Virus record (IMG/VR): IMGVR_UViG_3300034103_000544
Coordinates: 1 to 27,033 of that record
Length of the DNA stretch: 27,033 bases
Strand: one strand, 5' to 3'
From: a virus
Shown here: in pieces, positions 5,371 to 14,833 of the stretch
How positions within the stretch are numbered: the first letter of the stretch is position 1
Layout of the letters: every line of letters begins with the position of its first letter
Program-made: the position numbers and the translations under genes
Notes under the pieces: model-generated
Told to the model about the DNA's origin: nothing
What the model saw: only the letters and a program-made list of their open reading frames with translations
Databases searched by the model: none

Positions 5371-7413
5371 TTATTTAGTAAACATATTATTAAAAAAAGC
5401 ACCACCCTCACTATAGCTATTATCAGCAAATGGGTCATCACTGTGTTTTAAAAATCCTCTTTCTTTAAAGAAATCAGATTCTAAAAAATTCTTGGTACTT
5501 CTTGTCTCAGCTTGTATTGCTTGTTTGTTCAAAGTTACATCTAAAATCAATACAGCAATTAAGGCTGATACCCTATCAAAGTTTCCATCTTTATTCCACT
5601 TAATCAATTCTTGTATTAAACCTGTAGAACGGAGTCTATTTACATTAAGTATTTCTGAGTTAGGTTCAATTGGTTCTAATAACCACTCTCTAATTAACTC
5701 TCTACCCCATGTATTTGTTCTCTCTGTTGCTTTAAAACCATAAGACGTATTTAAATTAGGTTTCCACTCAATCTTATCTCTAAGTTGCATTGGAGTCTCT
5801 GCTAGCATGTGTAAACACTTTCTATGTTCCATGTAAGTAACAAAACCTAACTTATTAATCTCGGGAAATCCTGCAGCATTGTAGTACACTATTAATTTTC
5901 TACAGTTTTCATAGAAATCTTTGGCTAATTGTGGTCTACCTGTGTACTCAGCTACTATTCTTCTAGTAAATCTATCAAATACAAAGGCACAACCTACTGA
6001 ATCTGTAGTAGAATAGTCATCATCATAGGGGTCAATACCTACAACATACCTTCTAACAAACACTTTTCCATCACTATCTTTCTGTGGTTGCTCATAAATC
6101 TCTATACATCCTACAATACTATCATCAGGTCTTCTTTTAATAGGATAATCTCTAAGTGGATGTAAATTATCCATAGTAGTAAACCTTAATTCTCCATCTT
6201 CTGAAGGTGCAATTACACCAAGCCAGTTACTCTCAATATATTTTTGAGAATTTACTTTAATATCAGCTAATCTTTCATTAAGTAGCATAGTAGGAAACAT
6301 ATTTCCTGATGTTACTAAAAATGCTTCTGATGGTGTAAGTGGATACTGTGTCACTGCATCTCTATAAGCTGATGGATTACCTTTTTTAGTTTCTCTGTAA
6401 GCCATAATTGACTTTAAAGCATACTCTTCATTGGAATTACCATCATTATCTACTAATGGTACAGTTTTTTTAGTTTCTTTATCTGTGTGTACTCCAAATC
6501 TTTGCTTAGTAGACGGTAAAAACCACCCACATTGTTGGTTTCCTTTTTCAGGTTCCCACTCATTAGGAAATGCTAATAGATTAAACCTTTCTGGGTCATA
6601 ATACATTTCAGAAAATGCAGCAGTTCCACCACCCATGTCTCCACCTGTACCATAAATAATAGGAATACCAATAACATCATCACCATCTTTCCAGCAAGGC
6701 TCAGAAATATTGTATGATTCTATGATATTACTAAAGATACCTGCTTCCTCAAATAGGAAAATAGAACTACTCATACCTGCAGATGCAAATGAGTTGTCTT
6801 TAAATGTAATCTTTCTAATATCAGATTGGTAACCTACCCATACATCTCTACCATCTTCCATCTTTTGTTGATGTCTAGACTTCACATAGTCCTGAGTATT
6901 AGGGTTTCTAGGTTTATACCATACAGTATTCTGATCTAGAAAGTTAATATTATTCAATGTCATAGCCATTGTGTTATCAGAATACTTATTTTCATAAGCA
7001 GAGATAATACACTTGGCATTTCTAAAGAAGTTATATTCATGTACAACTAGTGCAGCATTTTTGTAAGAAAATCCAGTTCTTCTTGGCTTAACCATGATAA
7101 AACCTTTTTTCTCTTTTCTTGCTTGCTCAATTAACGTAAAGAATTCTAAATCTACATCTGTAAATCTAGGGAATCCTTCAGTCTTTCTCCCAGTCTTTTC
7201 ATCTTTTAAAAGCATCCTAGTGTAGTTCAGGTAGAAATAATATGTCCCAGGTATTGTAGTATTACCTATAGTTACACCTTCCATACACTTTCTTACTTCC
7301 TCTTTCCAAAACTCATTATATTGGTATGTACCAATAAGAGCTTTAGTATAAAATCCCGTAGTTTCAAACTCTGTTCTAGCCTCTAGGAATGCTTTTGTAT
7401 TACTTAATATCAT
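5371..7413 (-). CDS. terL: Terminase large subunit (TerL)
   Basis: The 680-residue DNA-packaging motor: an N-terminal ATPase drives DNA into the prohead and a C-terminal RNase H-like nuclease cuts the concatemer. Visible motifs are a Walker A-like P-loop at residues 109-116 (KPRRTGFS), a Walker B with catalytic acid at about 217-225 (SIFLFEEAG), and a nuclease motif with Asp461 in VVGIDPYDDD. Further acidic positions lie around Glu529 and the late DRVSALIAVLILD segment. The length fits crAss-like TerL. The ATG overlaps the stop of the upstream gene as ATGA, suggesting translational coupling to the TerS candidate. The assignment is firm; the exact third nuclease acid is inferred. Confidence 0.95.
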   Translation of the reverse strand: MILSNTKAFLEARTEFETTGFYTKALIGTYQYNEFWKEEVRKCMEGVTIGNTTIPGTYYFYLNYTRMLLKDEKTGRKTEGFPRFTDVDLEFFTLIEQARKEKKGFIMVKPRRTGFSYKNAALVVHEYNFFRNAKCIISAYENKYSDNTMAMTLNNINFLDQNTVWYKPRNPNTQDYVKSRHQQKMEDGRDVWVGYQSDIRKITFKDNSFASAGMSSSIFLFEEAGIFSNIIESYNISEPCWKDGDDVIGIPIIYGTGGDMGGGTAAFSEMYYDPERFNLLAFPNEWEPEKGNQQCGWFLPSTKQRFGVHTDKETKKTVPLVDNDGNSNEEYALKSIMAYRETKKGNPSAYRDAVTQYPLTPSEAFLVTSGNMFPTMLLNERLADIKVNSQKYIESNWLGVIAPSEDGELRFTTMDNLHPLRDYPIKRRPDDSIVGCIEIYEQPQKDSDGKVFVRRYVVGIDPYDDDYSTTDSVGCAFVFDRFTRRIVAEYTGRPQLAKDFYENCRKLIVYYNAAGFPEINKLGFVTYMEHRKCLHMLAETPMQLRDKIEWKPNLNTSYGFKATERTNTWGRELIREWLLEPIEPNSEILNVNRLRSTGLIQELIKWNKDGNFDRVSALIAVLILDVTLNKQAIQAETRSTKNFLESDFFKERGFLKHSDDPFADNSYSEGGAFFNNMFTK

Positions 7414-14290: not shown

Positions 14291-14364
14291 GGTTCTGTAG
14301 CTCAGCTGGATAGAGCAACAGCCTTCTAAGCTGTGGGTCTTTGGTTCGAATCCAAACAGGATCA
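14291..14364 (+). tRNA. tRNA-Arg (anticodon UCU)
   Basis: A full cloverleaf is visible. The acceptor GGTTCTG pairs with CAGGATC, allowing two G-U pairs. The D arm is GCTC-AGCTGGATA-GAGC and the anticodon arm is ACAGC-CTTCTAA-GCTGT with anticodon TCT. The variable loop is short and the T arm is TTTGG-TTCGAAT-CCAAA. The discriminator is A and CCA is not encoded. It reads AGA/AGG, the dominant arginine codons in the plus-strand genes. It lies 8 nt before the tmRNA and was probably transcribed with it. Confidence 0.95.
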
Positions 14365-14372
14365 CAATAATT

Positions 14373-14751
14373 GGGGGTATCATGGTATTGATCAGAATAC
14401 AAAGAGTAAGTATGTAAGCAAGTAGTCCCTTGTCTAATAATGTGAGGACTTTAAATATTAGTAGATAATAATAGCTGGAAACACTATTGAAACAGGTAAG
14501 GTTGCTGACGTAGTTGGTAAATCTGCCATCGCTGACTTAACTGCATCATTTTATGATGTTGAAGCTCCTGTACTTGAGCTTGTCTAATTAAGTACAAAAA
14601 CCTTGTTCTAAAGGCATATAGAGGATAATAGAATCCACAATCTATCTGATAGTTGTAAGACTATTAAAACCTGCTAGTAGGTATCTAGATAAACTTGTAG
14701 AAAACAATTGAAATTTATTTTGAGACATGGGTTCGACTCCCATTACCTCCA
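14373..14751 (+). ncRNA. ssrA: Phage tmRNA (ssrA) with a long, non-canonical tag
   Basis: A transfer-messenger RNA that would rescue stalled ribosomes. The tRNA-like ends are present: 5' GGGGGTA (14373-14379) pairs with TACCTCC (14744-14750), with T arm ATGGG-TTCGACT-CCCAT (14727-14743) and discriminator A; CCA is not encoded. CAGAATA (14393-14399) pairs with TATTTTG near 14716-14722, as in helix P2. Pseudoknot PK1 is explicit: AGTCC (14424-14428)/GGACT (14446-14450) with CTAATA (14434-14439)/TATTAG (14456-14461). The resume codon GCT at 14474 is preceded by TAATA, keeping the conserved U-5, A-4 and U-2 of E. coli UAGUC. The tag frame, GCT to TAA at 14585-14587, is 37 codons (AGNTIETGKV to APVLELV). 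Downstream repeats fit further pseudoknots. About 379 nt in total. Confidence 0.88.
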
Positions 14752-14752
14752 C

Positions 14753-14833
14753 ACTAATGGGGATTAGTTGGTGGAGTCCATCATAACTGTGATGGTCCTA
14801 ATGGGTGGTAGTTAATAGCTATCACCCATTTTT
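14753..14833 (+). terminator. Terminator and small hairpins after the tmRNA
   Basis: ACTAAT-GGGG-ATTAGT (14753-14768) and CCATCA-TAACTG-TGATGG (14778-14795) are followed by a strong stem: AATGGGTGGTAG (14800-14811), loop TTAATAG, CTATCACCCATT (14819-14830) and a T run. The last is a clear intrinsic terminator with one G-T pair. The first two may help 3' processing of the tmRNA. Confidence 0.8.

Follow-up and report, generated by a model that had tools for sequence, protein, structure and literature searches.

A phage tmRNA gene with a conserved 36-residue tag frame that lacks an AA end, in a crAss-like genome fragment

The sequence analysed here, called the window throughout, is a 27,033-nucleotide (27 kb) fragment of a crAss-like phage from IMG/VR. 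Its capsid, portal and terminase genes lie on the minus strand and its replication genes on the plus strand. The terminase is 31–33% identical to those of gut crAss-like phages over 90–100% of the sequence (tblastn). Judging by this relatedness of the terminase large subunit, the window belongs to a crAss-like phage (Crassvirales), and Bacteroidota are the likely host phylum. An SSB-like gene on one side and a spore-photoproduct-lyase-like gene (PF20903) on the other flank a small RNA island, in which a tRNA-Arg (UCU) gene is followed by a tmRNA gene (Table 1). The same tmRNA is present in four other contigs: L002, L009 and L086, with terminases 97–98% identical to that of the window, and L003, with an SSB-like protein 73% identical. 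Three further relatives (L015, L018 and L020; terminases 83–86% identical) have the tRNA-Arg at the equivalent site and no tmRNA there; thus the tmRNA gene appears to have been gained or lost among the relatives.

Several minor features surround the tmRNA gene. L002, L009 and L086 share the 3' flank seen in the window (14755–14827, CTAATGGGGATTAGTTGGTGGAGTCC...), which closes with a GGGTGGT...ATCACCC hairpin in L002 and L009 as well as in the window. On the stretch from its SSB-like gene to its tmRNA, L002 carries a tRNA-Arg-like gene with added sequence in the anticodon region (6539–6650), which ARAGORN does not call, and after it an HNH-like ORF (6714–7293). A tRNA-like stretch (AGTCAGGAGGTC...CCTGTTCTGACTA), also uncalled by ARAGORN, lies between tRNA-Arg and tmRNA in L009 (1000–1065) and L086 (2120–2170). 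Another related phage, L004, has a Hatchet ribozyme at 870–1001 (RF02678, 60.6 bits).

A first-pass annotation of this DNA had recognised a phage tmRNA by its acceptor stem, T arm, P2 helix and H-type pseudoknot PK1. An Infernal search with Rfam bears this out: RF00023 matches positions 14373–14754 of the plus strand over the full length of the model (1–374) with 71.6 bits at a gathering score of 47 (E = 3.1e-26). ARAGORN called no tmRNA in the window. By the acceptor stem, T arm, PK1, P2, tag frame and full-length RF00023 match, the predicted RNA belongs to the tmRNA family. In the Rfam alignment the posterior is good for both the 5' and 3' tRNA-like parts, P2 and PK1 and low for the post-tag region, which is too variable to confirm PK2–PK4.

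Table 1. Features of the small RNA island (positions in the window)
Feature	Position	Strand	Details
tRNA-Arg (UCU)	14291..14365	+	ARAGORN; Rfam 66.7 bits
One-piece tmRNA gene (ssrA)	14373..14751	+	379 nt including discriminator A; CCA end unencoded; Rfam RF00023
Acceptor stem, 5' strand GGGGGUA	14373..14379	+	has G3 of G3:U70; 7/7 pairs with 14744–14750
P2 helix, 5' strand	14393..14422	+	Rfam alignment
Pseudoknot PK1, H-type	14424..14461	+	AGTCC 14424–14428/GGACT 14446–14450; CTAATA 14434–14439/TATTAG 14456–14461
Resume codon GGA (most likely)	14477..14479	+	upstream UAGCU: A at −4, U at −5
Tag frame, 36 codons + TAA	14477..14587	+	GNTIETGKVADVVGKSAIADLTASFYDVEAPVLELV; stop TAA 14585–14587
Hairpin CATCAT/ATGATG within tag frame	14544..14558	+	in 5/5 phages; without covariation to test it
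P5 hairpin, tag stop in loop	14570..14595	+	GTACTT 14570–14575/AAGTAC 14590–14595; invariant in 5/5 phages
Post-tag region, place for remaining pseudoknots	14588..14693	+	very divergent: 41% identity to L002
P2 helix, 3' strand	14694..14722	+	Rfam alignment
T arm ATGGG TTCGACT CCCAT	14727..14743	+	Rfam alignment; one compensatory pair in L003
Acceptor stem, 3' strand UACCUCC	14744..14750	+	then discriminator A 14751

The G3:U70 pair is the one recognised by alanyl-tRNA synthetase. It is present, together with all seven acceptor pairs, in the window, L002 and L003. In L003 four of the acceptor pairs are swapped on both strands (GGGCCCG/CGGGUCC) with G3:U70 retained. PK1 has 5 + 6 pairs in the window and 5 + 5 in L003, where the first stem is intact and the second keeps five of six pairs. 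The stop of the tag frame lies in the loop of the hairpin at 14570–14595, which we take to be the P5 placement known from E. coli tmRNA. A decaying tmRNA, acquired from a host by chance and now drifting, would fit the low Rfam score (72 bits versus 106–198 for Bacteroidota cellular tmRNAs above the cut-off) and the sister phages without a tmRNA at this site. This explanation is nevertheless refuted by the compensatory pairs in the acceptor and T stems, the conserved tag and the selection on its frame (see below), and we give it almost no credence.

The first-pass annotation had read the tag from GCT at 14474 through 37 codons to the TAA that ends at 14587, with AGN as its first residues. The frame and the stop stand. 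The resume codon, in contrast, is most likely GGA 14477, one codon 3' of GCT in the same frame, which leaves 36 codons and a tag that starts with GN. We favour GGA because the UAGCU that precedes it fits the rule of A at −4 and U at −5. Before the resume codon GGC of Bacteroidota tmRNAs, A is found at −4 in 77 of 78 cases and U at −5 in 74 of 78, and A86 and U85, which match this rule, have a role in resume-site choice in E. coli tmRNA (PMC2481249). GGA is favoured also because the Rfam alignment sets it on the resume codon of the model, because L003 reads UAGUU before GGA (the alternative there being GUU after CAATA), and because most of the homologous tags described below begin GG(A/C)-AAY after (T/C)A.... 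The homologous frames of the relatives all begin at the corresponding place. Two observations had been named in advance as speaking against a long tag, namely a short ALAA-type frame and stops or frameshifts in related phages. Neither was found: no frame of the window tmRNA gives a short ALAA-type tag, and the tag frame has no stop or frameshift in any relative compared.

The sole other frame of normal tag length starts at CTG 14476 and encodes 12 residues, LETLLKQVRLLT, before a stop. The true tag could be this short one, or the long frame could be structural RNA only. The stop of the 12-residue frame is at the equal place in L003, and a hairpin lies within the long frame. However, CTG 14476 has no A at −4, the changes in its frame (frame 1) are unconservative (p = 0.077–0.10), conservation extends as far as the TAA within the P5 loop, and eight other phage contigs have homologous long frames. 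We therefore consider a short or purely structural frame very improbable.

The tag peptide is conserved in all five phages (window, L002, L003, L009 and L086), and all five copies end in LELV. At the DNA level the tag is 94% identical between the window and L002 and 77% between the window and L003, versus 41% and 34% for the post-tag RNA, which is 28–41% identical among the five phages. The tag was the best-conserved segment of the RNA in eight of the nine pairs compared. In a frame test, the observed substitutions were placed at random 4000 times and their conservativeness was scored in each frame. The tag frame gave p = 0.00075, and frames 1 and 2 gave 0.077 and 0.81. The tag frame (frame 0) is the only open one, and its changes include two separate CTT-TTA leucine swaps. 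Most of the weight of the test comes from a single diverged relative, L003, and the rest from small sets of more distant relatives with LELAA ends, among which the coding signal recurs (p = 0.003–0.06). From these substitution patterns we infer that the tag frame is selected as a peptide. AlphaFold predicts a helix at residues 3–26 or 8–26 of the tag with low confidence (mean pLDDT 65–72), and we do not count this model as evidence.

The same pattern bears on another possible function, that of a decoy which ties up SmpB or obstructs the trans-translation of the host and adds no tag. Such a role was proposed for the RNA of mycobacteriophage DS6A, which has only a tRNA-like domain (PMC4131195). 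With this precedent, phages without SmpB could use a tmRNA in the same way. A decoy needs neither an mRNA-like part nor a tag peptide, yet these are the best conserved here, and a decoy role thus seems highly unlikely.

As a baseline for the host phylum we sampled 99 Bacteroidota genomes evenly, and 97 of them had a tmRNA match. The cellular tags (about 96) are all of 9–10 residues and nearly all end in (L/M)AA; the first-pass annotation had given about 10 residues and an ALAA end for Bacteroidota tags. The odd long or non-AA host tags of L246, L273 and L277 (3 of about 94 Bacteroidota cases) are ARAGORN mis-calls in the wrong frame; other frames of these RNAs give NDEYSYSLAA, NDNTSFALAA and GDNFGYRMAV. 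Compared with Bacteroidota tags, that of the window is therefore some four times as long and has another end; the claim of a long tag without an ALAA end holds, with 36 residues, LELV and a peptide conserved in relatives. A strict pattern of the window tag had no match in 84,980 cellular species, and a wider pattern of the tag family had none in 396 Bacteroidota genomes.

Homologues were found among viral sequences. Scanning IMG/VR twice with patterns for tmRNA 3' ends yielded at least 238 sequences, which are not a random sample. Among the listed matches, L394 has the tag GNTIISEVGSVADLTSKSAISALVADLAPAVVAEELELV. In a shuffle test the window tag scored z = 8.6 against L394, L394 scored 9.6 against L373, and the window tag scored 3.7–4.4 against L382 and L373; unrelated long tags used as controls reach 3.6 at most. 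The listed matches and a dedicated scan give as homologues L394, L373, L382, L546, L547, L550, L311 and, more weakly, L323 (z = 1.9 from the window side). The tags of this family have 36–42 residues (39 in L373 and L547, 41–42 in L382, L546, L550 and L311) and follow the pattern GN.I..E.G..AD..LEL. In the alignment E5, G7, A10, D11, L33 and L35 (window tag numbering) are invariant. In six or seven of the tag-bearing relatives the terminase is 32–40% identical to that of the window, compared with 97–98% in the close ones. As short queries are insensitive in tblastn, little can be read from the lack of a match to the window tag in 50,697 phage records or from the E = 9 matches within Microcystis phage proteins that were all a LELAA-type tag retrieved. 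The tag matched nothing in Pfam, PHROGs or PDB.

The members of the family differ in their ends. The window clade and L394/L552 have LELV; L373, L382, L546, L547 and L550 have LELAA, L311 has LRLAA and L323 has LALS. The five window-clade sequences with LELV thus lack the AA-type C-terminal end of ssrA degradation tags, (L/M/V)AA. On this comparison, the usual AA end of a long conserved tag is replaced by V in the window lineage. In the terminase tree L394, on a long branch, joins the LELAA phages apart from the window. The change from AA to V would then either have occurred twice, or the tmRNA would have been transferred between phages. Transfer or strong constraint is suggested also by L311 and L550, which have 78% DNA identity in their tags and terminases from different deep clades.

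Phage-carried tmRNAs are known from mycobacteriophages Bxz1 and Wildcat, Bacillus phage G, huge phages (PMC7162821) and the OM43 phage Melnitz, and tmRNAs were reported in 402 of 18,146 phage genomes (PMC9004378). The tmRNA of Melnitz is two-piece, whereas that of the window is one-piece and belongs to a crAss-like phage. Phage tmRNAs have been little studied; the literature that we found assumes that they act like those of hosts, and long tag peptides are not described in PMC4131195, PMC7162821 or PMC9004378. In the open-access literature searched, no paper dealt with the tags of crAss-like phage tmRNAs or treated long phage tags as a group, an absence that is weak evidence. The stated range for cellular tags is 8–35 residues (PMC8012679), so the phage family lies just above it, and unlike long cellular tags it has a body conserved across distant phages. 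With the one-piece tmRNA of Bacteroidota (RF00023; tags such as GENNYALAA) the phage RNA shares the G3:U70 acceptor, P2, PK1, A at −4, a GG. resume codon, the stop in the P5 loop and the overall length. It differs in its tag (36 residues instead of 9–10, LELV instead of (L/M)AA) and in post-tag pseudoknots that are unrecognisable.

We think it somewhat probable that this gene encodes a complete, working tmRNA which frees ribosomes during infection, adds a two-part 36-residue tag and hands the products on differently from, and probably more slowly than, (L/M)AA-tagged products of the host. Host alanyl-tRNA synthetase would charge the phage tmRNA through G3:U70. Since SmpB was undetected in the five phage records searched, the host protein would presumably bring the tmRNA to stalled ribosomes. 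Translation would restart at GGA 14477 and add the phage-specific tag, which on many products might take the place of the host tag. Its conserved body (GN.I.E.G..AD..., predicted to be partly helical) most likely has a phage-specific job, and the short C-terminal end most likely sets how readily default AAA+ proteases take up the product. The change from the LELAA of relatives to LELV in the window lineage would then alter the fate of tagged proteins. A body with a job beyond reaching ClpXP, and an end that tunes decay, is the simplest account of 36–42 conserved residues.

The tag may instead be an ordinary degradation tag that is merely long. Host proteases (ClpXP, ClpAP, Lon or one specific for C termini) would still act on the hydrophobic VLELV end or on the long accessible tail, and the tmRNA would only boost normal trans-translation. 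Because relatives keep LELAA, the tag family might be just such a long degron; the related ends LRLAA and LALS, and the small-residue ends of 152 of the 165 viral tags called by ARAGORN among the listed matches, fit with this. In vitro, E. coli ClpXP still degrades certain long tags that lack ALAA at the end, though less well, and a longer extension helps (PMC8512704). A conserved body of 36–42 residues is, however, needless for this purpose, as host tags manage with 9–10, and all five window-clade phages as well as L394/L552 retain LELV, an end without a final A or AA. We regard a long degron as quite possible, short of probable. For the window lineage we hold a body with its own job to be slightly likelier, because the AA end was lost and the body kept.

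It is also conceivable, if doubtful, that degradation is not the main role of the tag. Through trans-translation crAss-like phages would then attach a conserved phage peptide of 36–42 residues to the products of stalled ribosomes, and the window lineage would have dropped the protease end, uncoupling rescue from decay or delivering the products to a phage or host receiver. Ribosome rescue requires just the tRNA-like part, SmpB and a translatable and terminable tag, and with protease-resistant tags rescue is still enough for survival (PMC8012679, PMC2584231). The LELAA ends of homologues and the degradation of non-ALAA long tags by ClpXP would count against a simple absence of decay. A tag peptide conserved across distant crAss-like phages, with an end that switches between LELAA and LELV, offers a direct way to ask whether phages alter the fate of rescued proteins.

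The tag of the window had been taken for a single oddity, and it turns out to be one among many long phage tags. Among the listed matches ARAGORN called at least 165 viral tags, of which at least 31 have 25–33 residues; the small-residue ends mentioned above include those of long tags, most of which still close with A or AA. Its longest call there is 33 residues, presumably a limit built into the program. At least about 26 tags of roughly 31–42 residues were read by hand among the uncalled listed matches. ARAGORN also shortens long viral tags, for example to 11 of 42 residues in L311 and to 28 of 39 in L373. As many are missed or shortened in this way, phage annotations in print probably under-report long tags.

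Dozens of other viral contigs among the listed matches have long tags of families unrelated to that of the window. Tags of the types AEDN..LLAA, AKAIT..LMAA, AKSKL..TAVA and AEDIMSIPTS..IAA are likewise long, conserved within their groups and often missed or cut by ARAGORN, but have no homology to the window tag detectable in the shuffle test. A second conserved family, AEDN.D..LAEA.Y...NADE......LLAA, with 33–34 residues and uncalled by ARAGORN, is found in L443, L470, L456, L463, L471, L479, L360 and L427; tblastn, insensitive with such short queries, gave no match to it in phage records. Further families are seen in L482, L506 and L544 (AKAITNAVKSVKSF..DELCLMAA), in L441, L509 and L517 (AKSKLVNGLLDRFNPSKRVA...TAVA) and in L410 and L415 (AEDIMSIPTSLTRG...ELAIAA).
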